From the NCBI GenBank assembly GCA_016192145.1, contig JACPUT010000006.1, positions 620,001-684,000 of the forward strand: a stretch of 64,000 nt of DNA, in the 5' to 3' direction. How positions within the stretch are numbered: the stretch's first letter is position 1; each line of letters starts with the position of its first letter. Below are positions 1,728-16,878 of this stretch, in pieces. The notes below the pieces were generated by a model that was not told the origin of the DNA, searched no databases, and was given only the letters and a program-made list of their open reading frames with translations. The position numbers and the translations under genes were made by a program. The DNA comes from Acidobacteriota bacterium (GTDB taxonomy: Bacteria > Acidobacteriota > Holophagae > Holophagales > Holophagaceae).

Positions 1728-3230
1728 CTAACACTTCACTTCAGCGTTCGTACGGGCGTAATACCACCAGTTGAGGACCAGACAGAGCACGTAGAAGGCA
1801 GCGAATCCATAGAGGGCGTTTTCGACGGTGACGGCGCCTGGCTTGATTTGGCTTTTGAAGACGGTGGGAATGATGAAGCTGCCATAGGCCGCGGCAGCGC
1901 CCGTCCAGCCCAGCACGGGGCCGGCGAACTGGGGCTCGAAGATGAAGGGCACCATCTGGAAGGTGCTGCCGTTGCCGATGCCGCTGCCAAGGAAGAGCAG
2001 CATGAAGCTGAACATGAAGGCGCCGAAGAAGGGCGTGGGATCCGGTGCCGCCACGGCGGCCTTGACGTAGTGGGCCACCAGGAGGGCGCCGACGATCTGG
2101 ATGACCGTGGACCACTGGGTGACGACGCTGCCGCGGAGCTTATCGGAGAGCCAACCGCCGATTGGGCGGATGAGGCTGCCCAACAGAGGGCCTAGAAAGG
2201 CGAAAGCGGAAGGGTCCTTTTTGAACACGATCTTGATGAGCAGGGGGAAGGAAGCGCTGTATCCGATGAAACTGCCGAAGGTCATGATGTAGAGGAGGGT
2301 CATGATCCAGTTGTGCTTCATGCCGAAGATGCGGAACTGCTTGCCTAGGCTCTCCTTCACTTTTCCGGGGAAAAGCTTCATGGCCCCTAGGCAGAGCACC
2401 ACCACGAGGATCACCAGGCCCAGCTGGAGGCTGAGGGGGAGCTTGGGGTTCTTCACGAGGATCCAGGCGCCTACGGCACTCACGGCCATGGCCACGGCCT
2501 GAAGGCTTAGGATGCGCATCACGGCCGCAGAGGTGGGCTCGCTGTCTTGGCCGGGCAGGTTGTTCATCCCGAACCAGGAGCCGAGGGTGAAGAGCACGAG
2601 CATGGGCACCCAAACCAGAGCCCCATTTTGGATGTAGAGGGCCTGGCCCGCGGCGGTGACGTGGGGCGCTCCGGCCAGGCTGCCGAAGAGGGCGCCGGTC
2701 ATCACTACGGGGATGAGGAACTGCATCACGGACACCCCCAGGTTCCCGATGCCAGCGTTCAGCCCCAGGGCCAAGCCGGAAAGGCGCTTGGGGAAAAATC
2801 CATTGATGTTGGACATGGAGGAGGAGAAGTTGCCGCCGCCCACGCCCGAGAGAACGGCCAGGGCCGCGAAAGTGGCGAACGGGGTGCTCTTGTCCTGAAG
2901 GGCGATGCCCGCGCCCAGAGCCGGGGCGATGAGCAGGGCGGTGGTGATGCCCACCACGTTGCGGCCGCCGGCAAGGGCCACGAGGAAGGAGCTGGGGATG
3001 CGGAGCGTGGCGCCGGCGAGGCCCGCGATGCTCACGAGGGTGAAGAGCTGAGTGTCGTCGAAGGGGAAGACGCCCTTCATCTTCGCGGTGAGGATGCTCC
3101 AGAACATCCACACGCTGAAGGCGCAGAGGAGGCTGGGCACGGAAAAGGTGAGGTTCCGCCAGGCGGTCTTGGATCCACCACCCTTCCAGAACGCGGTGTC
3201 TTCGGGCTTCCATTCGCTGAGCTTGGTCAT
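1728..3230 (-). CDS. narK: NarK-type nitrate/nitrite transporter (second of pair)
   Basis: 500 residues, MFS fold with about 12 membrane segments. The start at 3230 is supported by GGAG just upstream and by homology beginning at the first hydrophobic segment (about residue 28). The nitrate signature regions are present as Gly-rich stretches (GVGGGNFSSSMSNINGFFPK and GIGNGSTFQ). This is the NarK2/NarU-like branch that exchanges nitrate for nitrite across the inner membrane. It follows the other narK with an 11-base gap, so both are in one operon. NarK1 + NarK2 pairs are known in denitrifiers, sometimes as one fused protein; here they are separate reading frames. Confidence 0.88.
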   Translation of the reverse strand: MTKLSEWKPEDTAFWKGGGSKTAWRNLTFSVPSLLCAFSVWMFWSILTAKMKGVFPFDDTQLFTLVSIAGLAGATLRIPSSFLVALAGGRNVVGITTALLIAPALGAGIALQDKSTPFATFAALAVLSGVGGGNFSSSMSNINGFFPKRLSGLALGLNAGIGNLGVSVMQFLIPVVMTGALFGSLAGAPHVTAAGQALYIQNGALVWVPMLVLFTLGSWFGMNNLPGQDSEPTSAAVMRILSLQAVAMAVSAVGAWILVKNPKLPLSLQLGLVILVVVLCLGAMKLFPGKVKESLGKQFRIFGMKHNWIMTLLYIMTFGSFIGYSASFPLLIKIVFKKDPSAFAFLGPLLGSLIRPIGGWLSDKLRGSVVTQWSTVIQIVGALLVAHYVKAAVAAPDPTPFFGAFMFSFMLLFLGSGIGNGSTFQMVPFIFEPQFAGPVLGWTGAAAAYGSFIIPTVFKSQIKPGAVTVENALYGFAAFYVLCLVLNWWYYARTNAEVKC

Positions 3231-3241
3231 GGGGTCTCCGG

Positions 3242-4534
3242 TCAATCGATGTCGGTGGCTACAGCGTGACGACGTTCCTCGCCGAAGGTTTCCAGGGCCT
3301 TGCCGTGGGCGCCCACCCAAGTCGTCGTCCAGCGGCGGTCCACCAGGGCGAGGGCCAGGAGGGCCAAGCCGGTGAGGGCCACGCCCGAAAGGAACCCGGG
3401 GGCGAAGGAATGGCCGAAGGTCGAACCCATGATTGAGAAGGTGTGCTGCTTGCCCAGCCCCATGAAATAGGGGAGGAAGCCGCCCGCCAGGGCGCCGATC
3501 TCCCCGATGAGGCTGGAGGCCACGGCGGTATCGCCGCGGAAGCGCAAGGGAACCAGCTGGAACACGGCGCCGTTGCCCGCGCCCATGGCGGCGAAGGTGA
3601 CCACGAGGATCGCCACCGTCACGAGGGGGTTGGGGGGCAGGGTCGCCGCGAGGCCCACGGTGACGAGGATGGCGCCGCAGAGCCAATAGAGGAGGCGGAT
3701 GCCGCCCAGGTGATCCGAGAGCCAGCCGCCGGCCACGCGCAGCACGGAGGCCACGATGACGATGGCGGCGCTGTACTTGCCGACGGAGGCCTTGGGGATG
3801 CCGTACTGGTCGCCGAAGAACACGGGCAGGAAGCTGGAGAGGCCGATGAAGCCGCCGAAGGTGACGGCGTAGATGAGGTTGAAGATCCAGGCATCGCGGT
3901 TCCAGAGGATCTTCACGTAGTCCATGAGGGGCTTCTTGGCTTCGCGATCCGAGGGCTCCTTGGCGAAGATCAGGAGCAGGAGGAAGGCCAGGCCCATGGG
4001 AATCATGGCGAAGCCGTAGACCATCTTCCATCCATAGACCTTGGCCATGGGGGGGGCCATGAGGAGGGCCAGAACGGTGCCGCTGTTGCCGGCGCCGGCG
4101 ATGCCCATGGCCAGTCCCTTGAACTTCGGGGGGAAGGAGCCGGAGCCCAGGGAGAGGGCCACGCCGAAGGAGGCACCGGCCACGCCCAGGGCCACGCCCA
4201 TGCCCAGCACATGGTTGTAGCTGGAGACGAACTGCCAGCCGAAGAAGAGGCAGCAAAGGATGATGCCCATCTCCAGCAGGGCCGCGTTCTTTCGCCCGAT
4301 GTACTGGGAGAGGATGCCCAAGGGGAAGCGCATCAGGGCGCCCGCCCACACGGGAACGGCCACCATGAAGCCCTTTTCCGCGGCCGAGAGGCCGAACTGC
4401 TCGGCGATGAAGAGGGCCATGGCCCCGTTCAGCACCCAGATGGCGAAACAGAAGTCGAAGTAGAGGAAGGAGGTCAGCAGCGTCGGCATGTGGCCCGACT
4501 TGCGGAACTCCTTGAAGGTGGCGAGGAAGGACAT
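3242..4534 (-). CDS. narK: NarK-type nitrate transporter (first of pair)
   Basis: 430 residues, MFS with about 12 membrane helices. Start placed at ATG 4534, with AAAGGG five bases upstream; an in-frame GTG at 4540 is the alternative. Motifs include GVAGASFGVALSLGSGSFP and GAGNGAVFQLVPLRF, the two nitrate-porter signature segments. It resembles NarK1, thought to be a nitrate/proton symporter, while its downstream neighbour resembles NarK2, an antiporter. The promoter region (4535-4754) is shared with the divergent sensor kinase gene and holds an FNR-like box. Confidence 0.88.
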   Translation of the reverse strand: MSFLATFKEFRKSGHMPTLLTSFLYFDFCFAIWVLNGAMALFIAEQFGLSAAEKGFMVAVPVWAGALMRFPLGILSQYIGRKNAALLEMGIILCCLFFGWQFVSSYNHVLGMGVALGVAGASFGVALSLGSGSFPPKFKGLAMGIAGAGNSGTVLALLMAPPMAKVYGWKMVYGFAMIPMGLAFLLLLIFAKEPSDREAKKPLMDYVKILWNRDAWIFNLIYAVTFGGFIGLSSFLPVFFGDQYGIPKASVGKYSAAIVIVASVLRVAGGWLSDHLGGIRLLYWLCGAILVTVGLAATLPPNPLVTVAILVVTFAAMGAGNGAVFQLVPLRFRGDTAVASSLIGEIGALAGGFLPYFMGLGKQHTFSIMGSTFGHSFAPGFLSGVALTGLALLALALVDRRWTTTWVGAHGKALETFGEERRHAVATDID

Positions 4535-4574
4535 GGGCACCCTTTCGAAGCCTGCGGCCGATAGAAAAGCGGAT

Positions 4575-4667
4575 CAATGAATCCGAAAATAAGGATGCCT
4601 GATGTTTGACCCAAGACAAGGGTGGGGCGGGGATTCATGATAAAGATCACGTAAGTGTTTGTCCTAC
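4575..4667. promoter_or_regulatory. Divergent narK / sensor-kinase promoter with FNR-like box and two shared motifs
   Basis: TGAT-AAAG-ATCA at 4638-4649 fits the FNR/DNR half-site pattern. Beside it, 4657-4667 (GTTTGTCCTAC) is the exact reverse complement of 7162-7172, which lies in front of the tehA-like gene. A third motif at 4575-4587 (CAATGAATCCGAA) recurs with one change at 7202-7214, and part of it (TCCGAAAATA) at 52-61. These may be sites for the NarL-like regulator encoded at 6525; that link is inference. Confidence 0.5.
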
Positions 4668-4754
4668 ATGGTTCGCTCTGGGCGTGGAAGGGCCATGGTG
4701 ACGGCTCCGCCCAGGACTAAATCGATGCGATCCTGCCTGAGGAGAAGGGTAGGA

Positions 4755-6515
4755 ATGGGCTGGACCTCTGGTGTCTTTCAATCGCTGCGGGGCCGGCTCA
4801 CCCTTCTGGCCTGCTTGGCCACCCTACCGGCCTTCCTTTTCGTGCTCTACGCCGCCAGCCAGGAACGGCAAGTCGCTTTGGGCCGGGCGGAAAGCGAGGC
4901 CCGCTATGTGGCAAGCCTGGCTTCCCGGGAGCATGCCCATCAGGTCATCGGCGCCGAACGGCTGCTGGGCCGCCTCGCGGAAATGGGGGCTGCCTCCGGA
5001 CAGCCCCGGCTGGAACCCCTTCAGTCGCTTCTTCCTTCAGTGCTCAGGGGATTTCCCCAATGTGCCAATCTCGGCATCCTCGATGGGGAAGGGCGATTGG
5101 TCTTCAGCGTGGTGCCTCCAGACCATGCAGTGGATATGAAGGGCAACCTGGCCTTTGAAGGGGCCCTCCAAGCTCCGGGCGTGGCTCTGGGCCGCTACCA
5201 AGTGGGGCAGATCGTCGGGCGCCCCGTGCTGATCCTGGCCCAGGCCGTGCGGGACCGGCAGGAGCACTTACTGGGCGTGCTCTTCGCGGCGCTGGACCTT
5301 GCCTGGCTCAAGCAATTGGCAAACCAGCCCGGCATGCCGCCCGGTTATGCCCTGCTCATCGTGGACCGGGATGGGCGAGTGCTGGCGCGTTCCGAAGGAA
5401 CGGGGCGGGGCATGGCCGAAGAAGGGGGGCTCCTCCCGGAGTTCCGGGAGCTGCGGGATTCCTCCCGTTACCAGAGCCGGGGCCGGGGGGTGGATGGGAT
5501 TCCGCGCCTGTACTCAGTGGTACCCATGGCCGGCGTGCCCGATCTGTACGCCGCGGTGAGCCTGCCCGAGGAGCGGGTCACGGGTCTAGCCAACCGGGCC
5601 TTTCTGCGCGCGGTGTTGGCCTTGGCGGTGCTCACCTTGCTTACCGTGGCCTCCTCCATCGCGGCGGCGGACCTGTCCGTGCTCAGGGATCTCCGCTTGC
5701 TCGCGAGGGCCACCCGCGCCTTCGGCGGCGGGGATTTGGCGGCGCGGGCCCCCGTGCCGCCGGCCACCGGAGAAATCCGTGATCTGGCGACAGCCTTCAA
5801 TGGCATGGCCGAGGCACTGGAGGCGCGGCACCGGGAGGCCACCCTGGCCCACGACCAGCTACGCGCCCTCTCGCACAGGCTCCAGGCCGCCCGGGAGGAG
5901 GAGGGGGCCCGCATCGCGCGCGAGCTGCACGACCAGCTGGGGCAGGAACTCACGGCCCTGAAGCTCGAGCTGGGTCGCATGAGGCGGCTTCGCCTGGTTG
6001 GTTCCTCCGGAACCGCCGAGCTGGACCTCGGGCTTGAGCAGATGGGGGCGCAAATCGACGCCTGCGTGGATTCCATCCGAAAAATCTCCTCGGAGTTGCA
6101 CCCCAGCGTCCTGGACCGTTTGGGTCTAGCGCCGGCCCTTGAGTGGCTCATCCGGGAGTTCGAGCGTCGGAGTGGGCTGCCCTGCGACTTCACCGCCGAA
6201 GGGGATCTGCGGGAGCTGGAGCCTCAAGTGGCCACGGCGCTCTTCCGCATCACCCAGGAAGCCCTTACGAACATCCTCCGACACGCGGAGGCCCGCAAGG
6301 CGGAGGTGGATATCCGCGAGGAAGGGGGCCAGCTTTTCCTCTGCATCCGAGACGATGGGCGGGGATTTCACTCCGGGGAGGCAGGCGCTTCCCTTGGCCT
6401 GCTGGGCATGGGCGAGCGGGCCCGGCTCCTGGGCGGCTGCGTGGACGTGATTTCACGGCCGGGAGAGGGAACGTCCATCCTGGCCCGGGTCCCACGGATT
6501 TCCCCAAAGGCATAG
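4755..6515 (+). CDS. NarX-like membrane sensor histidine kinase
   Basis: 586 residues. The start at 4755 has AGGAG and AAGGG upstream and puts the first membrane helix at about residues 15-34. Order: TM1; periplasmic sensor of about 250 residues (Cache/PDC-like); TM2 near 300; HAMP; HisKA_3 dimerisation with phospho-acceptor H392 in ARELHDQLGQE; HATPase_c with N-box (EALTNILRHAEA) and G-box (DDGRGF). HisKA_3 kinases pair with LuxR/NarL regulators, and such a gene follows 9 bases downstream. Position between narK and other nitrate-linked genes suggests nitrate or nitrite sensing. It lacks the clear cysteine cluster of NreB-type oxygen sensors. Confidence 0.85.
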   Translation: MGWTSGVFQSLRGRLTLLACLATLPAFLFVLYAASQERQVALGRAESEARYVASLASREHAHQVIGAERLLGRLAEMGAASGQPRLEPLQSLLPSVLRGFPQCANLGILDGEGRLVFSVVPPDHAVDMKGNLAFEGALQAPGVALGRYQVGQIVGRPVLILAQAVRDRQEHLLGVLFAALDLAWLKQLANQPGMPPGYALLIVDRDGRVLARSEGTGRGMAEEGGLLPEFRELRDSSRYQSRGRGVDGIPRLYSVVPMAGVPDLYAAVSLPEERVTGLANRAFLRAVLALAVLTLLTVASSIAAADLSVLRDLRLLARATRAFGGGDLAARAPVPPATGEIRDLATAFNGMAEALEARHREATLAHDQLRALSHRLQAAREEEGARIARELHDQLGQELTALKLELGRMRRLRLVGSSGTAELDLGLEQMGAQIDACVDSIRKISSELHPSVLDRLGLAPALEWLIREFERRSGLPCDFTAEGDLRELEPQVATALFRITQEALTNILRHAEARKAEVDIREEGGQLFLCIRDDGRGFHSGEAGASLGLLGMGERARLLGGCVDVISRPGEGTSILARVPRISPKA

Positions 6516-6524
6516 GATCAATCC

Positions 6525-7157
6525 ATGTGGCACATCCTTCTTACCGACGATCACGCCATCCTGCGCACGGGGCTGCGCCGGATCCTGGAGGATGCCTTCC
6601 AGGGCGTCCAGGTGGGCGAAGCCGGCAGCGTGGACGAGGCCCTCGCCAAAGTGAAGGAAGGGGGATGGGACCTGCTGGTGCTCGATATCTCGATGCCAGG
6701 CCGTGGCGGACTGGAAGCCATCCCCGACTTCAAGGCCCTCCAATCCCACCTCCCGATCCTGGTGCTCAGCATGTACGGAGAGCAGCAGTTCGCCATTCGA
6801 GCTTTGCGGGCGGGAGCCTCGGCCTACCTCACCAAGGAACATGCGCCGGAAGAGCTGATCCAGGCCATCCGCACGGTGCTCTCGGGCAGGCGCTACATCG
6901 GCGCCTCGCTGGGGGAGGCCCTGGCTGCCCACGTGGCCCTGGATCGGGAAGGGCCGCCCCATGAGCTGCTATCGGGGCGCGAGTTCGAGGTGTTCCGGCT
7001 CATCGCCTCCGCCAAAGGCATGACCGAGATCGGGGAGGAGCTGGGCCTATCCGTGAAGACCGTGAGCACCTACCGCACCCGGATCCTGGAGAAGATGCAG
7101 ATGGGCTCCAACGCGGAGCTGATGCAATACGCCATCCGCCAGGGCCTCGTCGAATAA
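6525..7157 (+). CDS. NarL/FixJ-family response regulator
   Basis: 210 residues. The N-terminal receiver has acidic residues in TDDHAILRTG and the phospho-acceptor D54 in LLVLDISMPGRGG; the conserved Thr/Ser and Lys regions follow (LVLSMYGEQ, AYLTKEHAPEE). The C-terminal LuxR-type HTH spans about 145-208 (LSGREFEVFRLIAS ... SVKTVSTYRTRILEKM). It is co-transcribed with the kinase and is its likely partner. Candidate targets are the motifs shared by the narK and tehA-like promoters that flank this two-gene operon. Confidence 0.88.
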   Translation: MWHILLTDDHAILRTGLRRILEDAFQGVQVGEAGSVDEALAKVKEGGWDLLVLDISMPGRGGLEAIPDFKALQSHLPILVLSMYGEQQFAIRALRAGASAYLTKEHAPEELIQAIRTVLSGRRYIGASLGEALAAHVALDREGPPHELLSGREFEVFRLIASAKGMTEIGEELGLSVKTVSTYRTRILEKMQMGSNAELMQYAIRQGLVE

Positions 7158-7161
7158 CCCC

Positions 7162-7214
7162 GTAGGACAAACGCCGACCGGACCCTTCCAAATAAAAGGA
7201 GCAATGAGTCCGAA
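7162..7214 (+). promoter_or_regulatory. Promoter region of the tehA-like/focA operon with two motifs shared with narK
   Basis: GTAGGACAAAC (7162-7172) matches the narK promoter motif exactly, in the same orientation relative to the downstream gene. CAATGAGTCCGAA (7202-7214) matches 4575-4587 with one change, here in the opposite relative orientation. Two shared words in two promoters flanking the same regulator gene are unlikely by chance. Confidence 0.45.
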
Positions 7215-7283
7215 TAATCCCGCTTTCGCGCATCGCCGCTGGGAAGCACCTTGAAGGCACCGGAAATCCGGAGCGGAGGCGGC

Positions 7284-8423
7284 ATGGGCGGGGGGAAGTG
7301 GAAGGCAGTTCCGGGAGGACCCAGGGGCCCGCTCCGCGAAGCTTTCCTGCAGGTTGTCGCGGAACTTCACCCCGCCTACTTCGCCATGGTGATGGCCACG
7401 GGCGTGCTCGACGTCGCCTGCCGCCTGCTCGGCATCAAGCTTCTGGCGGAAATGCTCCTCTGGACCAACCTCGCGGCCTACCTCGCGCTATGGATGTTGA
7501 CGATCCTACGCATGGCGCGCTTTCCGCGCCTCTTCCTCGCGGATTGGAGCAACCACCAGCGGGGGCCCGGCTTTTTCACCACCGTGGCCGCCACCTGCGT
7601 GGTGGGTATCCAGCTGGTGGTGCTCCGGCAGGAATTCACCCTGGCCCGGGGGCTCTGGTGGGGAGCCTTGGCCCTTTGGCTCGTCTGCATGTATGCCATC
7701 TTCGCGGCCCTCACCGTGAAGGAGGAAAAGCCTCCTCTGGAGGACGGCATTAACGGCGGCTGGCTCACCGCGGTCGTGGCCACCCAATCCCTCTGCGTCC
7801 TGGGCTGCCTGGTGGCGCCAGAGCTGGGCCTGCCCTTGGATGGTGCCCTCTTCCTCATGACCTCCCTCTGGCTCTGCGGGGGGATGCTCTACATCTGGAT
7901 GATCTCGCTGATCTTCTATCGGTATACCTTCCTGCGCTTCCTCCCCTCGGACCTCATGCCGCCTTATTGGATCAACATGGGCGCCATGGCCATCTCCACC
8001 CTCGCCGGCACGATGCTCATCAAGGCCGCTGGGAGCTCGCCCCTGCTGACCTCCCTTCTGCCCTTCCTCAAGGGTTTCACGCTGCTCTACTGGGCCACCG
8101 CCACCTGGTGGATTCCCATGTTGCTGATCCTGGGCCTGTGGCGTTACGTGGCCCGCAAGGTGCCGCTCACTTACGACCCCCTCTATTGGGGTGCCGTGTT
8201 CCCGCTGGCCATGTACACGAGCTGCACCTACCGCCTTTCGGAAGCCCTGAACCTGCCCTGGCTCGCCGGGATCCCCCGGCTCACCATCGCAGCGGCGCTC
8301 ACCGCCTGGCTGCTCACCTTCTTGGGGCTCCTGCTCTCCATCGCCCGAACGCTGTTCCGGGTCCTCGGCCTGCCCGCCACCGAACGAATTCCCCTGCTCG
8401 GCGCCCTTCGCCGACCGTTCTGA
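7284..8423 (+). CDS. TehA/SLAC1-family anion channel or dicarboxylate transporter
   Basis: 379 residues with about 10 membrane helices. ATG 7284 has GGAG a few bases upstream; an in-frame TTG at 7251 is an alternative start. The family hallmark ELHPAYFAMVMATGVL opens the first helix, and the C-terminal half keeps the repeated five-fold helix pairs. Family members are the tellurite-resistance protein TehA, yeast malate permease Mae1 and plant SLAC1, which conducts nitrate and chloride. In this locus an anion channel for nitrate or nitrite is plausible, but substrate cannot be read from sequence. First gene of a three-gene operon ending with focA/nirC. Confidence 0.75.
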   Translation: MGGGKWKAVPGGPRGPLREAFLQVVAELHPAYFAMVMATGVLDVACRLLGIKLLAEMLLWTNLAAYLALWMLTILRMARFPRLFLADWSNHQRGPGFFTTVAATCVVGIQLVVLRQEFTLARGLWWGALALWLVCMYAIFAALTVKEEKPPLEDGINGGWLTAVVATQSLCVLGCLVAPELGLPLDGALFLMTSLWLCGGMLYIWMISLIFYRYTFLRFLPSDLMPPYWINMGAMAISTLAGTMLIKAAGSSPLLTSLLPFLKGFTLLYWATATWWIPMLLILGLWRYVARKVPLTYDPLYWGAVFPLAMYTSCTYRLSEALNLPWLAGIPRLTIAAALTAWLLTFLGLLLSIARTLFRVLGLPATERIPLLGALRRPF

Positions 8424-8441
8424 TCCCTTTCTGGAGGATTT

Positions 8442-8762: not shown

Positions 8763-8784
8763 GCGGAACAAGGGAGTACACACG

Positions 8785-9603
8785 ATGGATTACGTGACAC
8801 CTGCGCGCCTCATGGACGAGCTGGAAGCCGTAGGGCGCAAGAAGGCGGCCCTCGGAGCCCGGGCGATGGTGCTAAAGGGCTTCCTCTCGGGCGTGCTCCT
8901 GGCTTACGCCACGGCCCTGGCCTTCAAAGTGTCGGACGGTTTCGCGCCGGGAGCTTCAGCCCTCGTGGCCGGGGTGGTCTTCCCCGTTGGATTCGCCATG
9001 ATCGTGCTCCTGGGCATGGAGCTGGCGACCGGCAACTTCGCCGTGCTTCCCATCGCCTGCCTCCGTGGCAGCATCCCGATCAGGGGGGTACTGCGCAGCT
9101 GGGGCTGGGTGCTCCTGGGCAACCTCCTTGGGAGTCTCTTCGTGGGGCTGCTCCTGGGTGTGGCCCTCACGGAGATGTTCCTTCAGCCGGCGGGCCCCTT
9201 GGGCGTCAAGCTCGTGGCCGTGGCCCAGGCCAAGACCCATGCCTACGCCCACGGGGGGGCGCGGGGCTGGATCACGGCCTTCACCAAAGGTCTCCTCTGC
9301 AATTGGATGGTGGCCATGGGCACGGTGCTCGGCCTCAGCTCCAGCTCCACCTGGGGCAAAATCGCAGCCATCTGGCTACCCATCACCACTTTCTTCGCCC
9401 TGGCCCTGGAACACTCCGTGGTGAATCTCTTCGTAATCCCCACTGCGATGCTATTGGGCGCGGACATCACGATTGGCGAGTGGCTCTTCTGGAACCAGCT
9501 GCCGGTGATCTTGGGCAACCTCGTGGGCGGGGCCCTGCTCACGGGTGCCCTACTGCACCTCGTCTACCCTCGGGTCCTCGGGGAGGGGGCTTTGGAACAC
9601 TGA
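8785..9603 (+). CDS. Formate/nitrite transporter (FocA/NirC family)
   Basis: 272 residues, six membrane helices. Family marks include GVVFPVGFAMIVLLGMELATG in helix 2 and GLLCNWMVAMGTVLG with the Cys-Asn-Trp element near the pore, and the conserved EHSVVNLF segment with its pore-region His. Members form pentameric channels for formate, nitrite or hydrosulfide. Next to nitrate transport genes, nitrite export or uptake is the more likely role. Last gene of the 7284-9603 operon, convergent with the minus-strand reductase operon 13 bases away. Confidence 0.85.
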   Translation: MDYVTPARLMDELEAVGRKKAALGARAMVLKGFLSGVLLAYATALAFKVSDGFAPGASALVAGVVFPVGFAMIVLLGMELATGNFAVLPIACLRGSIPIRGVLRSWGWVLLGNLLGSLFVGLLLGVALTEMFLQPAGPLGVKLVAVAQAKTHAYAHGGARGWITAFTKGLLCNWMVAMGTVLGLSSSSTWGKIAAIWLPITTFFALALEHSVVNLFVIPTAMLLGADITIGEWLFWNQLPVILGNLVGGALLTGALLHLVYPRVLGEGALEH

Positions 9604-9616
9604 GCCCCAGGGCGCC

Positions 9617-9829
9617 CTATTCTTCCAGATCCGGCGCCTTGAAGGCGAGGGCCAGGGCCACGGCCGTGAGGGCGAGGGAGACGAAGAAACTGCCAGGCAG
9701 GATGGCCCGGTAGCCATCCAGCACCGCCCCCAGCACCGTCTCGAAGAGGTAGAGCTGGATGGCGAGGATGAGGAGGGCGACGGCCAGGGCCGCGTCGCTC
9801 AGGTGGGCCTTGCGGGGTAGTTTGCGCAT
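9617..9829 (-). CDS. Small membrane protein at the end of the reductase operon
   Basis: 70 residues with two hydrophobic helices (about 12-30 and 42-62) and a positively charged N-terminus (MRKLPRKAHLSD). The start ATG at 9829 overlaps the stop of the Rieske gene by one base (TGATG), a sign of translational coupling. No family recognised. As the last cistron of a molybdenum reductase/Rieske operon, it could be a small anchor or assembly subunit. Confidence 0.65.
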   Translation of the reverse strand: MRKLPRKAHLSDAALAVALLILAIQLYLFETVLGAVLDGYRAILPGSFFVSLALTAVALALAFKAPDLEE

Positions 9830-10362
9830 CAGGCATCCCCCCCTTCCGTGGGTTTGGCGAGATCCCCCACGGCTCGCACGCTGCCATCGGGGCCCACTTC
9901 CAAGGCGATGCCAGCCAGGGGGCGCGTGGGTGGGCCCTGCACGGGAAAGCCGCGATCCGGCTCGAAGAAGCCCATGTGGCAGGGGCACTCAAGGCGCTTG
10001 CCATCGAAGCGAACGGCGCATCCCAGATGGGTGCAGGTCTGGCGGTAGGCGCGCAACTTTCCCTCATGGGTGCGCAGGAGGATGCAGCGATCGTCCGCGT
10101 CCCGGAAGGTGAAGAGTTTGCTCTCGCCCGCCTTCAGCTCGGCGGCCCCTTCCAGGGGCACGGGCTCGTGGCGGGCCCCTTCGCCCGGGGCGCCCTCGAG
10201 GGGGCGCTTGCGGCCCCAGAGGTACCCGATGCCGACGGTGAAGCCGGCGCTCACCACGGCGAGGAAGCGGGCGAACTCTCGGCGGGAGTAGCGGCTCTCC
10301 TCGTGGAGATCCAGGGGGAAGGCGCGGCGCCAGAATGGTTTCGAGACAGGCTCCTGGGCCAT
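9829..10362 (-). CDS. Rieske [2Fe-2S] protein with Tat-type membrane anchor
   Basis: 177 residues. Near residue 26 a twin-Arg signal (SRREFARF) precedes one hydrophobic helix, the usual uncleaved Tat anchor of Rieske proteins, so the cluster domain should lie outside the inner membrane. Cluster ligands are C110/H112 (CTHLGC) and C126/H129 (CPCH); C115 and C128 can form the structural disulfide. The start codon directly abuts the stop of the ferredoxin gene. With the NarI-like gene upstream, it could pass electrons from quinol to the molybdenum subunit or to a periplasmic carrier. Haloarchaeal nitrate reductase operons also contain Rieske and cytochrome b partners. Confidence 0.87.
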   Translation of the reverse strand: MAQEPVSKPFWRRAFPLDLHEESRYSRREFARFLAVVSAGFTVGIGYLWGRKRPLEGAPGEGARHEPVPLEGAAELKAGESKLFTFRDADDRCILLRTHEGKLRAYRQTCTHLGCAVRFDGKRLECPCHMGFFEPDRGFPVQGPPTRPLAGIALEVGPDGSVRAVGDLAKPTEGGDA

Positions 10363-10947
10363 TCACCACCCCCCTTCGGCGAGCAGCAGGGCCGCGTCCA
10401 GGTGCAGCGGTTTATCGGGATCGGGCACCATGAGCGCGTTGCGGGTCTTCACCTTGAGGGCTCCCACGGTGAACTCCCGCACGGGCTTGTTCTGGCGCAT
10501 GGCGCTGATCTCATGCTTGGGCACGTAGAGCAGGGCCTGGCTGGGGCACACGGTGGCGCACATGGGCTTGTGGCCCTCGCTGGTGCGGTCGTAGCAGAGG
10601 TCGCACTTGAGCATCTGCTCGAGGCCCGAGAAGACGATGGGCACGCCGAAGGGGCAGCTCAGCTCGCAGTTCTGGCAGCCGATGCAGCGGGGCTTTTGCG
10701 AGCTGTGGACGACGCCGTCCTCGCTGCGCTTGATGGCGTCCGCGGGGCAGACCTGGGCGCAGATGGGATCTTCGCAGTGCATGCACACCGTGGGAGCCGT
10801 TTGGGTGGAGTTGAGCCGGTCCATCTCATCGAGGTGGATCATGGGGCGGCCCTTGTGCGTGCCGCACTCGGCGCAGGCGCCCACGCAGGACTTGCAGCCG
10901 ATGCAGCGCTGGGGGTCGATGAAGAAGCCGTACTCGTCAGAGACCAT
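10363..10947 (-). CDS. Four-cluster [4Fe-4S] electron-transfer subunit (NarH/NrfC/DmsB-like)
   Basis: 194 residues. Four cysteine groups are visible: CIGCKSCVGAC, CMHCEDPICAQVCP, CIGCQNCELSCPFG and CDLCYDRTSEGHKPMCATVCP, the pattern of the ferredoxin-like beta subunit of molybdenum enzymes. No signal peptide, so cytoplasmic. Its start overlaps the stop of the molybdenum subunit by one base (TGATG). It should relay electrons between the membrane quinol module and the molybdenum site. Confidence 0.88.
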   Translation of the reverse strand: MVSDEYGFFIDPQRCIGCKSCVGACAECGTHKGRPMIHLDEMDRLNSTQTAPTVCMHCEDPICAQVCPADAIKRSEDGVVHSSQKPRCIGCQNCELSCPFGVPIVFSGLEQMLKCDLCYDRTSEGHKPMCATVCPSQALLYVPKHEISAMRQNKPVREFTVGALKVKTRNALMVPDPDKPLHLDAALLLAEGGW

Positions 10948-13208
10948 CAGAAGACCCTTTCCGGCAGGACGGCTTGGTTGGTGCGCGCCTCATAGGCCAT
11001 GCGCTGCAGCTCCGCCAATTCCGGGCTCAGCTGGTCGGCCGTCGTCTTCTTGATCCGGCAGGCGCTCACCTTGAACTCGGGGATCTTGCTCTGGGGGTCC
11101 AGGTGGCGGGCCGTGAGGCGATTGACGGAGAGGTCGCCGGGCCAGTGGTAGGGGACGAAGACGGTATCGGGCCGGATGGTCTTCACGACCTTGGCGGGCA
11201 GGACCATGGCGCCGCGCCGGCTGGTGATCTCCACGGGGTCCCCATCGGCGATGCCGAAGCGCTCGGCGAGCTTGGGGTGGATCTCCAGGTAGGGGTGGGG
11301 GCACTGCTCCACGAGGAAGCCGATGCGGCGGGTCTGGGTGCCGCTGAGGAAGTGGAAGACCGTGCGGCCCGTGGTGAGCCACACAGGGAAGTCGGCGTCC
11401 ACCACCTCCATGGCGGGACGCCAGGGCGTGGGCTGGAGGTGGGCCTTGCCATCGGCATGGTAGAAGCGGCCGCCCTCGAAGAGCCGGGGCGTGCCGGGAT
11501 GGCCTTCGGTGGGGCAGGGCCAGAAGACGCCCATCTCATCTTCCACCCGCTTCCAGGTGATGCCGGTGTAATCGGCGGTGCCGCCGCTGCTGGCCCTGCG
11601 CAGCTCGTTGAAGATGTCCTCGGGCCCCTTGAGGTGATCGAAGAACTTGCCCTGGCCCATCCGCTGGGCGATTTCCAGCTGGATGGCCCAGTCGGGGCGC
11701 GCGTCGCCCGGGGGCTCCACGGCCTTGTTGAGCTTGATGACGCGGCCTTCGGCGGAGGTGGAGGTGCCCTCGTCCTCCTCGTGCAGGGCGGAGGGCAGCA
11801 CCACGTCCGCGTGCTGGGCGCTTTCGCTGAGGAAGAAATCCAGGCAGACGAAGAACTCCAACTTGGAGAGCGCCGCGCGGGTGAACTCCGTATCCGGCAG
11901 GCTCACGAGGGGATTGAAGCAGAGCAGCAGCAGGCCCTTGATCTCGCCGGCGTGGATGGCGTTCATGATCTCCTGGGCGCTGAGGCCCTTGCGGGGCAGC
12001 TCCTCGTCCTTGCAGCCCCACACTTTGCAGACGTGCGCGCGGTGCTCGGGGTTCTCGATATCGCGGTTGCCGGGCAGCTGATCGCACTTGTGACCCTGCT
12101 CCCGCCCGCCCTGGCCGTTGCCCTGGCCCGTGATGGTGGCGTAGCCGCAATACGGTTTCCCGATGCGGCCCGTGGCCAGCACGATGTTCTGGGCCGAGAG
12201 GCAATTCTCCACGCCCTTGCTCTGGTGCTCGATGCCCCGGGCGTGGAGGAGGAAGCTCGTCTTGGCCTCGCCCCACATGCGGGCGGCCTTCTCGAGGGCG
12301 GCCACGGGCAGGCCTGTGAGCTCGCTGGCCCACTCGGGCGTGCAGTCCTTCACGGCCTCCAGGGCCGCCTCGAAGCCCGTGGTGTGGGCGGCGAGGAAGG
12401 CGTGGTCCACCATGCCCCACTTGTTCAGGAGATGGAGCACGGCGTTGGTGAGGGCGAGGTCGGAGCCGGGCTTGAGGGGCAGCATGAGATCCGCCGTGCG
12501 GCCCAGGGGCGTGATGCGGGGATCGACCATGATGAGCTTGGCGCCGCGATCCCGGGCCCGCCAGATGTAGTCGGTGGTGATGGGGCTGCACTCGGCGATG
12601 TTGGAGCCCTGCACCCAGATCACTTCCGCGCCTTCGATGTCCGCCCAGCTGTTGCCGGCGCGGTCGATGCCGAAGGTCTTCTTGTTGGCGACACCGGCGC
12701 TCACCATGCAGAGGCGGCCGTTGTAGTCGAGGTTCCTGGTGCCCAGGCCCAGGCGGGCGAACTTGCCCGTGAGGTAGCTCTTCTCGTTGGACATGGACAC
12801 GCCCGAGAGCACGGCGAAGGCATCCTTGCCGTACTTGTTTTGAACGTCCTGGATGCCCTGGATGACGCGATCCATGGCGGGCGCCCATTCGCTTTCCTGG
12901 AAGCCCTGCTCCGTGCGGACGAGGGCCTTGGTGAGGCGGTCGGGGTGGTTGCCCTGGAGGTAGCGCTTCACGCCCTTGGGACAGAGCTTGCCCTCGTTGA
13001 AGGGGAAGTCCTCCCAAGGCTCGAAGCCGATGACGTCGTTACCCTTCACCTTCAGCTGGATGCCGCACTGTTGGCCGCAGAAGCAGCAGTGCGTCTTCAC
13101 GAGGCGATCGGGCTCCGGATCCGCATCCCAGCCGCCGGGAGGGGCCAGGTTGAGGTGCGGGCCGTAGGTGGTTCGCAGGGCGTCAAGCGTGAGGGGGGTG
13201 CGCGCCAT
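10947..13208 (-). CDS. Molybdopterin oxidoreductase, probable nitrate reductase catalytic subunit
   Basis: 753 residues. Start at 13208; upstream in-frame codons fall into the repeat element at 13252-13360 and look non-coding. The [4Fe-4S] site is C41-x2-C44-x3-C48 and C76. [10 protein letters not shown] places a Cys (C167) as probable Mo ligand, as in NapA/NarB/NasA-type nitrate reductases. The [13 protein letters not shown] and C-terminal [15 protein letters not shown] regions are molybdopterin dinucleotide-binding parts. There is no Tat signal, so it should be cytoplasmic. NarK, NarX/NarL-like and FocA/NirC neighbours support nitrate as substrate. Formate dehydrogenase is an alternative, less likely given the context and the Cys-containing NapA-like motif. 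Confidence 0.8.
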
Positions 13209-13251
13209 TTCAATCCTGGGGGGGCTTGGTTGAGTTCGGGACCAAAAGCGG

Positions 13252-13360
13252 AACGCAGAGGCGCAGAGGCGCAGAGGCGCAGAGGAAGAGGTTTGGTTTT
13301 GGAACTCGGGACGAGGCCACAAGGGGCCTCTGCGTCTCCGCGTCTCTGCGCCTCTGCGTT
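13252..13360. repeat. Inverted repeat A: arms of four tandem 8-bp CGCAGAGG units
   Basis: The left arm (13254-13285) is four exact copies of CGCAGAGG. The right arm (13327-13358) is four near-copies of its reverse complement (CCTCTGCG and TCTCTGCG variants). They are separated by 41 bases and flanked by partly complementary sequence (ACCAAAAG / TCTTTGGT). Transcribed, it would fold into a stem of more than 30 bp. It lies in the 231-base gap between the NarI-like gene and the molybdenum subunit, inside the putative operon. Two unrelated but similarly built elements occur at 24.6 and 37.7 kb. Confidence 0.85.
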
Positions 13361-13439
13361 AGGTCTTTGGTAGCGGCCCCGGCCGGAAATTCCGCCCTGG
13401 ATTCGAGGGGTGACCTGCCTGGGCCAACCATTCGGGGGC

Positions 13440-14567
13440 TCATGAGGAAGGCCTCATCGTGGTGGGATCGTCGATGGGCACGACGGGTTCGGGTAGGTCG
13501 TGGAAGGGATCGAAGCCGCCGCCGAGGCGCACGCTCTGGGCCTTGGCGAGGAGGCGCCGCTTGCATTTGGGGCAGAGGTCCAGGTGGTGCACGTCCTTCG
13601 AATGCCGGGCTGCGTCTAGCTCCAGGCGGCTGAAGAGCTCGCCGAGATCCCGGCGCTGGTTGGCGCGGATGAAGGGATCCCCGCAGGCCTTGCAGGGCAG
13701 GCGGCCGTCCGCTTCGCCATCGGCCTTGTAGAAGCTCACGCCCAGCTGGGCCGGGCGCTGCACGATGTGGAAGAGTTTGCCGAAGGGCAGGCTCAGGAGC
13801 AGCAGGATCACCGTCAATTCGTGCAGGTAGGCGAGGGTGCCGAAGTTGCGGCCGTGGAGGAATTTCTCCGAGGCCGTGAGCATGAGCCCCGTGATGCTCA
13901 CGGCCAACAGCAACAGCAGGGGGGCGATGTCCAGATCGAAGCGCTGGGTGGCCATGTCGCCCTCGTCCTGGCGGCGGCGGACGAAGGCCAGCACGCACCC
14001 CGCGATCACCATGACGGCGGCCACGTCCAGGACGTGGAAGGTGAGCCAGGCCACGGGGGAATCCAAGGGGAAGTCCCCGGCGGGGAACCCGAAGACCCAG
14101 GCTTGGTATCGGGAGACGTCGAGACCGTGGGAGGTGAAACGCACCCACCCGAACACGAGCGGGAAGGTGACTGCGAAGGCCAGCAGGCACCCCCAGGCGA
14201 TGAGGGCGTGGGCGCCCCACCGCTTGATGGAGCGCCGCTCGATGAAGCGCTGGAGGAAGAGCTGATCCAACGCCAAGAGCGCGAGCCTCGGTAACTCCAG
14301 CAACCCCCTGGGCGTGAGGAGCCGGGCCACGCTGTGGTGGAAGTACATGGCCGTGGCGGGTCGCTCCACCCAGGACCAGTAGCGGTACGCGATGCCGAAG
14401 ATGGCGAAGAGGGCGGAGAGCAGGTAGCCCAGGAGGGCGGGATCCAGCCATCGGCCGCCCCGGCTTCCCACCACCACGGATGCGACCACCCCCATCAGGG
14501 TCAGGGACGCCCGGATCAGGGGGCGAGCCTGCAGATCAAGGCGGTGCAGGGGCACGGGTGGTTTCAT
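13440..14567 (-). CDS. NarI-like cytochrome-b-type membrane protein with C-terminal zinc-ribbon-like tail
   Basis: 375 residues with about six membrane helices. His residues in or next to helices (MYFHHSVAR, WLTFHVLDVAAV, LHGRNFGTLAYLHELTVILL, FGKLFHIVQR) could bind haem b as in NarI/DsrM-type subunits. The soluble C-terminus carries CKAC and CPKC pairs, 40-odd residues apart, able to hold zinc or an FeS centre. It lies upstream of the molybdenum subunit in the same direction and probably oxidises quinol for the complex. Its promoter region has a CAAT-N4-ATTG palindrome. Exact family uncertain. Confidence 0.65.
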   Translation of the reverse strand: MKPPVPLHRLDLQARPLIRASLTLMGVVASVVVGSRGGRWLDPALLGYLLSALFAIFGIAYRYWSWVERPATAMYFHHSVARLLTPRGLLELPRLALLALDQLFLQRFIERRSIKRWGAHALIAWGCLLAFAVTFPLVFGWVRFTSHGLDVSRYQAWVFGFPAGDFPLDSPVAWLTFHVLDVAAVMVIAGCVLAFVRRRQDEGDMATQRFDLDIAPLLLLLAVSITGLMLTASEKFLHGRNFGTLAYLHELTVILLLLSLPFGKLFHIVQRPAQLGVSFYKADGEADGRLPCKACGDPFIRANQRRDLGELFSRLELDAARHSKDVHHLDLCPKCKRRLLAKAQSVRLGGGFDPFHDLPEPVVPIDDPTTMRPSS

Positions 14568-14612
14568 CGAGGATCCTGGGTCACAGGATCCTCCCTTTAA
14601 TTCAAGAGGCAA

Positions 14613-14624
14613 CAATCTTTATTG
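14613..14624. promoter_or_regulatory. Palindrome CAAT-CTTT-ATTG before the reductase genes
   Basis: A TGAT-N4-ATCA-like spaced palindrome lies 46-57 bases upstream of the NarI-like start at 14567, in an AT-richer patch. On the minus strand its centre (CAATAAAGATTG) resembles the narK site (TGATAAAGATCA). It could bind the CRP/FNR regulator or the Rrf2 regulator encoded just upstream. Weak evidence. Confidence 0.35.
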
Positions 14625-14645
14625 ACGTTCCCCGCCTCGTGGGAA

Positions 14646-15104
14646 TCACGCCTTATGGGGGCCCTTGAGGCCCGCGACGCCAGGGTTCACGGCGAAACCC
14701 CGGGCCAGGGTGACCCGCTTCAGATCCGCGATGGTGGCATTGGTCATGGAAGTGGCCATCTGCTCCTTCACGGCCGTCCAGGCATCGTGCATGGGGCAGG
14801 GCTGATCGCTGGAGCACTCGGGGAAGCCCATGACGCAGGCCTTGAAGGTGTCCTCCCCATCCAGGAGGTGCACCACCTCCTCCACCGTGATCTTCTGGGT
14901 GGGCATGGCCAAACGGAAGCCGCCCTTGGGACCGCGCACGCTCTCCAGCATGCCGCCCTGAACGAGGCCCTGGAGCACCTTGGCCAGGTAGGGGCCGGGG
15001 AGGCCCAGCTGTTCCGCCAGGTCCTTGGCCATCACGAAGGTCCCATCCTCCGGCAGGGCTGCCAGGGCACGTAGGGCATAGGCGGAGGCGGAGGAGAAGA
15101 TCAT
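14646..15104 (-). CDS. Rrf2-family regulator, NsrR-like
   Basis: 152 residues. An N-terminal winged HTH (AYALRALAALPEDG ... LPGPYLAKVLQGLVQ) is followed by the Rrf2 RGPKGGFRLA wing and a three-cysteine cluster site, CVMGFPECSSDQPCPMH, as in NsrR/IscR proteins that hold a [2Fe-2S] or [4Fe-4S] cluster sensing NO or cluster status. Start at 15104. It stands just upstream of the reductase genes on the same strand and is a good candidate for NO/redox control of them. Confidence 0.85.
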   Translation of the reverse strand: MIFSSASAYALRALAALPEDGTFVMAKDLAEQLGLPGPYLAKVLQGLVQGGMLESVRGPKGGFRLAMPTQKITVEEVVHLLDGEDTFKACVMGFPECSSDQPCPMHDAWTAVKEQMATSMTNATIADLKRVTLARGFAVNPGVAGLKGPHKA

Positions 15105-15145
15105 AGGGACCAGGGTAGCGGAGTCCCTGATCCGTAGAAGGGGGT

Positions 15146-16870
15146 TTAACCCCTGGCGGTGAGCCCATAGTCCCCGGTCAGTTCCTCGACCAGTTCCCGG
15201 ACGCTCACCAGGTTCTTGAGACGCCAACCATTGGAACCCGTGAAGTAAAGGCCATTTTCCACATCGCCCAGGTGGGCGTCGGCCAGGCGGTCGGCGATGC
15301 AGTAGCCGGCGCCCCGGGCCCCTTCGCCCCGGCTGCAGGGCAGGAGGCAGTTGCTGATGCACTTGATGGCCGGGGCGGAACCATCCGCCACGTGATCCAG
15401 CAGGGGGGTGTGGACGGCCCGGGCGGGCATGCCCACAGGGCTCTTGATGAGGCTGATGTCCTCGGGGCGGGCCTGGAGGATGACGTCCTTGAAGTGGTCC
15501 GCCGCGTCGCACTCGTGGGTGCCGATGAAGCGGGTGCCCATCTGCACGCCGCCGGCGCCGAGGGCGAGGAAGCGGCGGATGTCGGCGCCATCCCAGATGC
15601 CGCCGGCCACGATCACGGGGAAGGTGCCCCAGAGATCCCGCTCGGCGATGACTTCGGGAAGGATGGCTTCCAGCGCGAAGGCGGGATCGCCGCACTGCTC
15701 CACGGAATAGCCCTGGTGACCGCCGGAGAGCGGGCCTTCCAGGACGACGGCATCGGGCAGGCGGTGGTACTTGCGCGCCCAGGTCTTGCAGAGCAGTTTC
15801 AAGGCCCGGGCCGAGGAAACGATGGGCACGATGGCAGCGTCGCCCGCCAACTCCGGGAGCTTCAGGGGCAGGCCCGCCCCGCTGATGACGAGCTGGGCGC
15901 CGGCTTCCACTCCCTCGCGCACCACGCGATCGTAATCCTCGATGGCGCACAGGGCGTTGATGCCGACGGCACCGTAACCCTTGGAGAGGTCCCGGGCATC
16001 ACGGATGAGGCGGGCCAGGGCGGGGCCGTGGTTCAGGTTGCCGGGGCCCACGGGGCGGCCCTGCGCGAAGGTCACGCCCTCCGGGTGACCGTAGGCGGTG
16101 CCGATGGCGCTCACGATGCCCACGCAGCCCGTCTCGGCCACGGCGCCCGCGAGGTGGGACCAGGACACGCCCACGCCCATGCCGCCCTGGATGATGGGAT
16201 AGGGGAGATCCAACTTTCCGATGCGCATGCGGGGCAGGGGCTCGGCTTCCGGGGCCAGGGCGCGGGGGAAGCGGGCCTCCAGCTTCTGGCGCAGCTCGGA
16301 GAAGAGGTCGCCGGCATCGCGCAGGGCCTTGGGGGAACGGAAGCTGAATCCGTCGAGGCCCCGTTTCATCCACTCGCGGCCATCCTCCAGCGCGGCATCC
16401 AAGCTGCCCAGCATGGGCAAGCGGCAGCTGGCGCGCAGGGAATCGAACCAGGCGCCGAGGCCTTCGAGCACGAGGGCATCCGGCTGGGCGTCGATGGCCT
16501 GGCGGGCTTCCACTTCGCCGGAAGCCAGCGCGAAGCGGCGCAGATCGAGCCCCTCCCAGGCCTTGCGAAGGGATTCGGGCACGGAGGGACCATGGACGAG
16601 GAAGGTGGCGCCCTCCTCCCTCGCCGTCTCGAGGGCCGCGCGAATCTGTCCGCGGAGGCCGCGCACATCGATGCCCAAGAGCGCGCCGGGCGAGAGCTTC
16701 AGGGCGCGGATCCGCGCGCGCAGCTCCTCGGGATCCGGGAAGGCGGGCAGGCGCAGGACACCCGCGCCCCCCGAGGAGGCGAAGGCCCCGGCGAGTCCGT
16801 CACCGCCTTCGGGAAACCAGCCCTGGATGAGCGCGAGCTTGGACGTGCCGGGAAAGACGTTGGCAGGCAT
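15146..16870 (-). CDS. Nitronate monooxygenase-family flavoprotein with an extra N-terminal domain
   Basis: 574 residues; start at 16870. The C-terminal ~340 residues are a typical NMO/2-nitropropane dioxygenase barrel: LDLPYPIIQGGMGVGVSW at its start, then GINALCAIEDYD, LVISGAGLPLKLPE and the FMN phosphate-binding IVAGGIWDGADIRRFLALGA plus GGVQMGTRFIGTHECDA. The N-terminal ~225 residues look like a second, degenerate TIM-barrel-like domain (LLGIDVRGLRG, DALVLEGLGAW) without those motifs. Usual NMOs have about 320-380 residues, so this is a long form. In a nitrogen-oxide locus it may detoxify nitronates or serve as an enoyl reductase-like flavoprotein. Confidence 0.75.
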   Translation of the reverse strand: MPANVFPGTSKLALIQGWFPEGGDGLAGAFASSGGAGVLRLPAFPDPEELRARIRALKLSPGALLGIDVRGLRGQIRAALETAREEGATFLVHGPSVPESLRKAWEGLDLRRFALASGEVEARQAIDAQPDALVLEGLGAWFDSLRASCRLPMLGSLDAALEDGREWMKRGLDGFSFRSPKALRDAGDLFSELRQKLEARFPRALAPEAEPLPRMRIGKLDLPYPIIQGGMGVGVSWSHLAGAVAETGCVGIVSAIGTAYGHPEGVTFAQGRPVGPGNLNHGPALARLIRDARDLSKGYGAVGINALCAIEDYDRVVREGVEAGAQLVISGAGLPLKLPELAGDAAIVPIVSSARALKLLCKTWARKYHRLPDAVVLEGPLSGGHQGYSVEQCGDPAFALEAILPEVIAERDLWGTFPVIVAGGIWDGADIRRFLALGAGGVQMGTRFIGTHECDAADHFKDVILQARPEDISLIKSPVGMPARAVHTPLLDHVADGSAPAIKCISNCLLPCSRGEGARGAGYCIADRLADAHLGDVENGLYFTGSNGWRLKNLVSVRELVEELTGDYGLTARG

Positions 16871-16878
16871 GGGAACCC

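Follow-up and report, generated by a model that had tools for sequence, protein, structure and literature searches.

A conserved five-gene operon of Acidobacteriota and other phyla predicted to encode a membrane-anchored, quinol-linked nitrate reductase

A five-gene set conserved in content and order

The operon considered here, a candidate for a nitrate reductase of unusual composition, lies in a stretch of 64,000 nucleotides (hereafter the window) that corresponds to positions 620001-684000 of contig C7 (JACPUT010000006.1) in the 3.8 Mb genome of a member of the Acidobacteriota (assembly GCA_016192145.1), and the nearest named relatives of its genes belong to Holophagaceae, e.g., Geothrix. 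Five genes follow each other on the minus strand, encoding a cytochrome b, a molybdenum (Mo) subunit, an iron-sulfur (FeS) protein, a Rieske protein and a protein of 70 residues (Table 1). All of them are found at 9617-14567, where an initial annotation, made from the sequence alone, had placed them. The same annotation described TGATG overlaps between the last four genes; this is correct for the Mo/FeS and the Rieske/70-residue junctions, i.e., for two of the three that it named, whereas the FeS and Rieske genes abut without overlap (TGAATG). The start of the Mo gene was placed at the ATG at 13208, while the mechanically defined open reading frame opens at a TTG at 13322. The gap of 231 nt between the cytochrome b and Mo genes holds a 45-nt inverted repeat, which is probably a genomic repeat element rather than a working part; in the same-family regions that were read, the matches to the two genes end just a few bases apart. 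The repeat is made of CGCAGAG units, and the six pattern matches in the window (at most one mismatch) all fall at 13241-13371. A scan with Rfam models returned tRNAs only.

Table 1. Coordinates of the operon and its neighbours, in window positions.
Feature	Position	Strand	Basis
NarI-like cytochrome b, 375 aa, proposed quinol-oxidising membrane subunit	13440..14567	-	sequence models, His conservation, structure model
Mo-bisMGD catalytic subunit, 753 aa, NasC/NarB side of tree	10947..13208	-	sequence models, residues, trees
Electron-transfer FeS subunit, 194 aa, four [4Fe-4S] motifs	10363..10947	-	Cys pattern, sequence models
Rieske [2Fe-2S] protein, 177 aa, N-terminal twin-arginine segment, CPCHxGxF motif	9829..10362	-	PF00355, motifs
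DUF6755-like (PF20540) protein, 70 aa, two predicted membrane helices	9617..9829	-	Pfam score and position
45-nt inverted repeat, 41-nt spacer, in gap between cytochrome b and Mo genes	13241..13371		sequence
NarK-family transporter	3242..4540	-	TIGR00886, 225.6 bits (cut-off 311.7)
NarK-family transporter	1728..3212	-	TIGR00886, 286.6 bits (cut-off 311.7)
SLAC1/TehA-family anion channel	7251..8423	+	sequence model
FNT-family (formate/nitrite) channel, convergent neighbour	8785..9603	+	sequence model
Rrf2-family regulator, upstream of cytochrome b gene	14646..15101	-	sequence model
Histidine kinase and response regulator	4659..7157	+	kinase best models MctS, UhpB, then NarX/NarQ, all below cut-off

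The distribution of the operon was followed at three levels. In a family set of 60 genomes (the source genome and 59 relatives), the cytochrome b is present in 14, including the source, with identities of 65-74% in the other 13, and DUF6755 in 15; tblastn searches of 15 fetched same-family regions found the five genes in constant order wherever contigs allow. A scan of GTDB species genomes with a cytochrome b profile yielded 127 confirmed relatives, and the best 80 of these were retained; 27 of the 80 loci are close (66-74% identity) and the other 53 distant (38-50%). They come from Acidobacteriota, Myxococcota, Planctomycetota, Armatimonadota, Verrucomicrobiota, Actinomycetota, Sumerlaeota, Binatota and one metagenome-assembled genome (MAG) of Bacteroidota; many carriers are MAGs, and lone phylum labels may be binning errors. 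The genes for cytochrome b, Mo subunit, FeS protein and Rieske protein are complete at 68 of the 80 loci, and in 66 of these 68 they occur in this order on one strand, the two rearranged loci (L078, L122) both being armatimonadotal. Eleven of the 12 incomplete loci are interrupted by a contig end, and the twelfth (L105) holds the cytochrome b alone. Finally, among 297 sampled Acidobacteriota genomes (source included), in which only the cytochrome b was searched, 43 encode it at full length and one has a fragment; the scores are separated by a clear gap (473.9 versus at most 74.7 bits), and 11 weak hits (E at least 9.8e-11) and one truncated hit (G259) were left uncounted. A further search of five genomes added nothing.

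The small fifth gene follows the same pattern. With a DUF6755 model enriched with hits from these same loci, a match stands directly after the Rieske gene at 65 of the 67 loci with room for it; 66 of the 67 gave hits, that of L089 being discounted as a 21-residue fragment overlapping the Rieske protein, and L104 has none in place. The window protein itself reaches 21.5 bits against PF20540 (cut-off 27 bits), and homologues in the same position reach 108.1 (L103) and 42.9 bits (L136). Counted genome-wide, irrespective of position relative to the operon, PF20540 was detected in all but four of 42 carrier genomes (38, with 33 over cut-off) and in none of 14 controls. The five-gene set is thus a conserved and widespread module whose order is kept beyond chance.

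The molybdenum subunit groups with assimilatory-type nitrate reductases

The Mo subunit has an N-terminal [4Fe-4S] motif and the Mo ligand motif NGRLCMVSA. A signal peptide was not seen on it, and the twin-arginine motif [ST]RRxF[LIVF] is found in none of the 63 Mo N-termini examined, so the protein should remain in the cytoplasm. Its best sequence model is that of NasC. With the NarG model TIGR01580 it scores 52.2 bits against a cut-off of 1084, and membership in NapA is contradicted both by the score (TIGR01706, 241 of 930.55 bits) and by the missing Tat motif.

A different identity, that of a formate dehydrogenase (FDH) feeding the quinone pool with the adjacent FNT channel as its formate transporter, would be in keeping with a score of 565 bits to TIGR01591 (Fdh-alpha), with the FDH chains that are the best matches of the Mo subunit in a PDB sequence search, and with the FNT gene itself. 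We rejected this candidate on residues, tree and topology test. Cys-Met at the Mo ligand is present in 54 of 54 aligned operon Mo subunits and also in nine nitrate reductase references (eight assimilatory-type, one periplasmic), whereas in four FDH references the Cys or selenocysteine (Sec) is followed by His (three) or Gln (one). At the position of FdhF Arg333, the operon proteins have Thr (48) or Val (6) and the nine nitrate reductases Thr, while the FDHs have Arg. These residues indicate that the active-site positions compared match those of nitrate reductases. In a 68-row tree, all 54 operon rows form one clade (support 99) apart from the FDHs (support 100), among which falls the FDH-like protein of the source genome itself (L001). 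In a 36-row tree, 23 operon rows again form one clade (99), which shares a group (100) with four rows of NasC/NarB type; FDHs and NasA/NapA lie across a branch with support 100. When the operon rows were constrained to join the FDHs, the approximately unbiased (AU) test rejected the arrangement (p-AU 1.5e-5). Both trees are quick ones, with support from the Shimodaira-Hasegawa-like approximate likelihood ratio test (SH-aLRT) only and a midpoint root as drawn. The first took 54 of 72 operon rows (near copies dropped) and omitted three other Mo proteins of the source genome; matches shorter than 680 aa and those of L080, L081 and L124, which cross a stop, had been left out of the alignment. The second used 23 of the 54, hand-picked to span phyla, with the long-branched L004 omitted. 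The initial annotation had proposed a phylogeny of NarB/NasA versus FdhF as a check, a firm grouping with FDHs counting as refutation; the Mo subunit is found on the NasC/NarB side, apart from the FDHs. Together with the transporter fusions described below, this makes the formate dehydrogenase highly improbable.

Electron-transfer and membrane subunits

The FeS protein has 17 Cys, 16 of which lie within four Cx2C...Cx3C groups corresponding to four [4Fe-4S] clusters, exactly as had been annotated; its best models are of the DmsB and HybA types, both under cut-off. The Rieske protein matches PF00355, its profile matches AioB, and it has a twin-arginine segment (SRREFARFL) and the cluster motif CTHLGC...CPCH. 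The twin arginine, described as a Tat anchor at the outset, recurs in the Rieske proteins of all 68 complete loci and in none of the 63 Mo subunits, and for this reason the Rieske protein should face the periplasm and the Mo subunit the cytoplasm. The residues after CPCH read xGxF in all 68 (CPCH itself is replaced by CHCH or CYCH in two Sumerlaeota). Gly and Phe thus occupy the positions of the Ser and Tyr of the bc1 Rieske protein, which we take to be those following the second Cys-x-Cys-His. Ser and Tyr at these positions raise the potential of bc1 Rieske centres. Four bc/b6f-type Rieske proteins from the PDB, aligned for comparison, all have the Tyr and one also has the Ser, while the ferredoxin CarAc, presumably of low potential, has Gly and Phe. 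From these residues we infer that the potential of the operon Rieske protein would be lower than in bc1.

The cytochrome b has six hydrophobic segments and weakly matches the sequence models of QmoC, TcuB, TmcC and HmcE. Its predicted structure (mean pLDDT 89) was compared with known ones by structural re-alignment, the only method that separated NarI and EtfD from the rest: EtfD gave Z 11.2 (rmsd 4.7, 230 aligned residues) and eight NarI entries, including that of E. coli, Z 10.2-10.7 at 21-22% identity, with the next row at 6.3 and a mycobacterial bc1 chain at only 5.1. In this comparison of a predicted model, the NarI and EtfD matches are set off from all others and accord with the sequence matches, in line with the NarI-like b protein of the initial annotation. 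Foldseek alone ranked G protein-coupled receptors (GPCRs) first with no E below 0.05, an hhalign comparison with the NarI of this genome alone was weak (probability 4.3, E 0.0095), and a PDB sequence search with the cytochrome b profile gave a single, unrelated match (E 0.39). All of 36 sequences compared have His 120, His 249 and His 267, the last two being 18 residues apart, as are the NarI ligands H187 and H205. A C-terminal CxxC...CPxC quartet is incomplete in four of the 36 (L089, L097, L105, L122), its first Cys being invariant.

The further suggestion of a "bc1-like" module is not supported as worded, as the cytochrome b resembles NarI, EtfD and QmoC rather than bc1 cytochrome b and the Rieske protein carries Gly/Phe in 68 of 68; because of these two traits a bc1-style Q cycle is one possibility among others. 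One could imagine, as a variant of a quinol-linked nitrate reductase and in the sense of the bc1 analogy of the initial annotation, that electrons bifurcate: the quinol would be oxidised in two one-electron steps, one electron travelling via b hemes to cytoplasmic nitrate and the other via the Rieske protein to an acceptor in the periplasm, e.g., a c-type cytochrome. The constant pairing of a twin-arginine Rieske protein with a cytochrome b at the 68 loci would suit such a scheme, as would the haloarchaeal nar operons, which pair a Rieske protein (NarB) with a cytochrome b (NarC) and for which a Q cycle has been proposed (PMC2483277). We nevertheless regard bifurcation as unlikely, since the cytochrome b matches NarI-type and not bc1-type models, since the missing Ser/Tyr pair predicts a potential lower than in bc1, and since no constant c-type cytochrome neighbour was noticed in the gene lists of 15 loci, which were not searched systematically for one.

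Transporters fused to or flanking the operon

At ten loci (L077, L079, L082, L083, L146-L151) a NarK-family transporter is fused in frame to the N-terminus of the cytochrome b. Two fusions were scanned, and TIGR00886 matched them with 176.3 and 218.5 bits, under the cut-off of 311.7 yet above every other model. These fusions tie the gene set to nitrate or nitrite. Six of the loci came from the scan of 297 genomes and were chosen by their long open frames, with L152 and L153 as unfused comparison; L153 is probably on the same contig as L092, and L077 and L079 are near copies. At L148, no Mo gene is found in the 1.7 kb fetched downstream of the fused cytochrome b. On four Deinococcus plasmids (L128, L136, L137, L138), which add a tenth phylum, the same gene set is followed by an MFS gene, named a nitrate transporter in two. 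The cytochrome b of all four is annotated in RefSeq as "MFS transporter", a label perhaps carried over from fused forms.

Unfused transporters are also frequent. MFS homologues lie downstream of the operon in eight of the 15 fetched same-family regions, and the fetched flanks of the 53 distant loci hold SLAC1 in 33, NarK in 12 and both in one, so that 44 have either. It could be objected that the enzyme acts on another oxyanion (chlorate, selenate), or as a nitrite oxidase in reverse, with nitrate as a side substrate: substrate preference shifts readily within this superfamily of Mo enzymes, and SLAC1 channels pass several anions. We consider this improbable in view of the NarK fusions and NarK neighbours and of the active-site positions checked, which match nitrate reductases.

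A proposed menaquinol-linked nitrate reductase

The Mo clade, the catalytic residues, the NarK fusions, the kept gene order, the recurrent DUF6755 partner, the SLAC1/NarK flanks, the NarI/EtfD-like model and the operon genomes in which neither NarG nor NapA was detected together lead us to read the five genes as probably encoding a nitrate reductase that is anchored in the membrane, linked to menaquinol and active on the cytoplasmic side, a reading in which substrate, quinol donor, physical complex, direction and the role of the Rieske protein are all deduced from sequence. The Mo and four-cluster FeS subunits would sit on the cytoplasmic face, docked to the NarI-like cytochrome b. Menaquinol would be oxidised near the outer face, and its electrons would cross the membrane via the b hemes and reach the Mo centre by way of the FeS chain and the cluster at the N-terminus; nitrate would be reduced there to nitrite, in the cytoplasm, with charge translocation as in NarGHI. 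On the outer face, the Rieske protein, inserted via Tat, and the DUF6755 protein with its two helices would together partner the cytochrome b, probably as part of the quinol site or as another point of electron entry. Nitrate would be imported and nitrite released by NarK, and perhaps by SLAC1, and NrfA, present in the source genome, could carry the nitrite on to ammonium.

Several observations weigh against this nitrate reductase. The best model of the Mo subunit, NF047855 (NasC), is matched with 780.8 bits, under its cut-off of 1100 bits, and the only Pfam match of the cytochrome b at E of at most 0.1, PF02665, reaches 21.3 bits, just below the cut-off of 22.9. Z scores near 10-11 can come by chance in helical bundles. 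His 178, one of four putative heme ligands, is kept in 30 of the 36 cytochromes and replaced in six, so that two b hemes are not assured in every member. At L105 (7941-8969, in a Chthonomonas MAG), where the Cys quartet is incomplete and H178 is Asn, the 17 kb fetched around the cytochrome b contain no match to the Mo, FeS or Rieske proteins. A part of SLAC1 in nitrate transport is a guess, as SLAC1 proteins score 79.3 and 87.2 of 237 bits with the tellurite/dicarboxylate model, a weak match. The source genome also encodes NarGHJI, so that the operon may be a second, special-purpose enzyme; and carriers that are aerobes may just as well use it in assimilation or redox balancing as in respiration.

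Physiological role and other nitrate enzymes of the carriers

Of the family-set genomes with the operon, 14 in all, five have a NarG above cut-off and two others a NapA-like protein (E below 1e-100); neither was detected in the remaining seven, three of which are less than 85% complete, making absence less sure there. Six of nine Geothrix isolates with the operon have NarG (one also NapA), and neither enzyme was detected in G. rubra, G. paludis and G. fuzhouensis, nor in the carriers Sorangium cellulosum So0157-2 and Chthoniobacter flavus. Since carriers with neither NarG nor NapA occur, the operon is no appendage of NarGHI. In the source genome, which has NarGHJI and NrfA, narG lies 11.6-15.2 kb upstream of the first base of the window. 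That region (L008, G000:C7:601000-620400) holds at 2990-17944, in one direction, a cytochrome c, NarGHJI, a c7-type cytochrome and an alternative-complex-III-like set (a Mo-like/FeS fusion, an NrfD protein and more membrane proteins, partly named by eye) that ends about 1 kb before the window.

A respiratory role appears likely in Geothrix; the Deinococcus, Sorangium and Chthoniobacter carriers are aerobes. An assimilatory enzyme, differing in role and not in chemistry, would reduce nitrate to provide the cell with nitrogen, drawing on quinol or on a donor in the periplasm in place of ferredoxin or NADH. This has some plausibility, given that the nearest tree kin of the Mo subunit are the assimilatory-type NasC/NarB, that many carriers are aerobes, and that strong NirB matches flank two of the 53 distant loci (L087, L103; L102 has a weak match of 28%). 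The other 51 have no strong NirB in the fetched flanks, some of which end at contig edges, as against nirB beside the Mo gene in all but one of six annotated assimilatory reference loci, the exception being Spirosoma, with no nirB within 4 kb. Moreover, NrfA is over cut-off in ten of the 14 operon genomes of the family set. We therefore hold an assimilatory role to be the less probable one, though it is the alternative that we take most seriously. No NirB was found among the open reading frames (ORFs) read in window 1-20268, the rest of the source genome not having been searched for it. NIR_SIR occurs in 31 of 42 carrier genomes and was not used, because sulfite reductases match it too.

Comparison with known systems

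As the initial annotation had noticed, the layout is unlike those of NarGHI, Nap and Nas, since the partners of the Mo subunit differ from all three. With NarGHI the operon shares a NarI-like cytochrome b, a four-cluster FeS protein, a (presumed) cytoplasmic Mo site and NarK neighbours, but its Mo subunit is of another lineage and far shorter than NarG (about 1200 aa), and the Rieske and DUF6755 proteins are additional. NarJ had no match among ten window proteins scanned; a NarJ-like gene is seen by eye in the separate nar operon. NasC/NarB, the nearest rows in the Mo trees, share the Cys-Met motif and the lack of a visible signal peptide. Known members, however, are soluble and use ferredoxin, flavodoxin or NADH, and most of their loci that were read have NirB, whereas the partners encoded here include membrane and Rieske proteins, which suggest membrane attachment. 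Judged by sequence, the operon combines a NarGHI-like layout with a NasC-like active site, below the sequence cut-offs of both, and with Rieske and DUF6755 proteins foreign to either.

Other systems resemble it in part. Arsenite oxidase AioAB likewise joins a Mo enzyme of the same superfamily to a Rieske subunit; it is an oxidase, and to our knowledge its core has neither a cytochrome b nor a four-cluster FeS subunit. EtfD, QmoC, TmcC and HmcE, membrane subunits with weak sequence or fold matches to the cytochrome b, have other partners and electron routes. The nearest published ideas that we found are two. The haloarchaeal Nar has a Rieske protein and a cytochrome b within its nitrate reductase operon, and is set apart, by its description and not by sequence, through a NarG of 983 aa with an outside active site and a cytochrome of 486 aa (PMC2483277). 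In Nitrospira, a Rieske-cytochrome b module (petBC) is hypothesised to feed an N-oxide reductase, the catalytic enzyme there being an octaheme nitrite reductase and the cytochrome of PetB type (PMC12342949). No description of the five-protein complex was found in the open-licence literature, most subscription journals lying outside that search. The operon would encode a complex iron-sulfur molybdoenzyme nitrate reductase with an apparently undescribed set of subunits.

If this is true, surveys relying on narG and napA overlook a membrane-bound nitrate reductase, whose cytochrome b is found in about one seventh of the sampled Acidobacteriota genomes (43 of 297) and whose gene set occurs in nine other phyla. 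One survey reports acidobacteria that are described as nitrate-reducing but in which it found only nasA and no dissimilatory nitrate reductase (PMC5900883); the gene set may account for some nitrate reducers without known enzymes. A bolder proposal, which we put forward as doubtful, is that of a quinol-dependent nitrate reductase class crossing phyla that evolved separately from NarGHI by placing a NasC-type Mo subunit on a NarI-like cytochrome, in which a low-potential Rieske protein bifurcates the electrons of menaquinol, sending them to nitrate in the cytoplasm and to an acceptor in the periplasm, and, in some lineages, a fused NarK domain passes nitrate on directly.

Neighbouring genes and further observations

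An Rrf2 homologue lies just upstream of the cytochrome b gene at 20 of the 27 close loci, and its product is a probable regulator of the operon. The window protein has three spaced cysteines (CVMGFPECSSDQPC) and possibly senses via an Fe-S cluster or NO. The histidine kinase and response regulator are a possible nitrate-responsive pair, and the FNT channel is a possible exit for nitrite. Beside the NarK genes are an Alginate_exp-like porin (464-1666; 21.4 bits, below cut-off) and a small protein with one CxxCH (90-404). In a genome of the same genus, the region a few kb downstream of the operon encodes another Mo oxidoreductase, only distantly related (23-25% identity), together with an FeS partner (L041, 1849-4053; also L067). 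Farther away in the window, 20 tRNA genes are clustered on the plus strand at 57811-62778.

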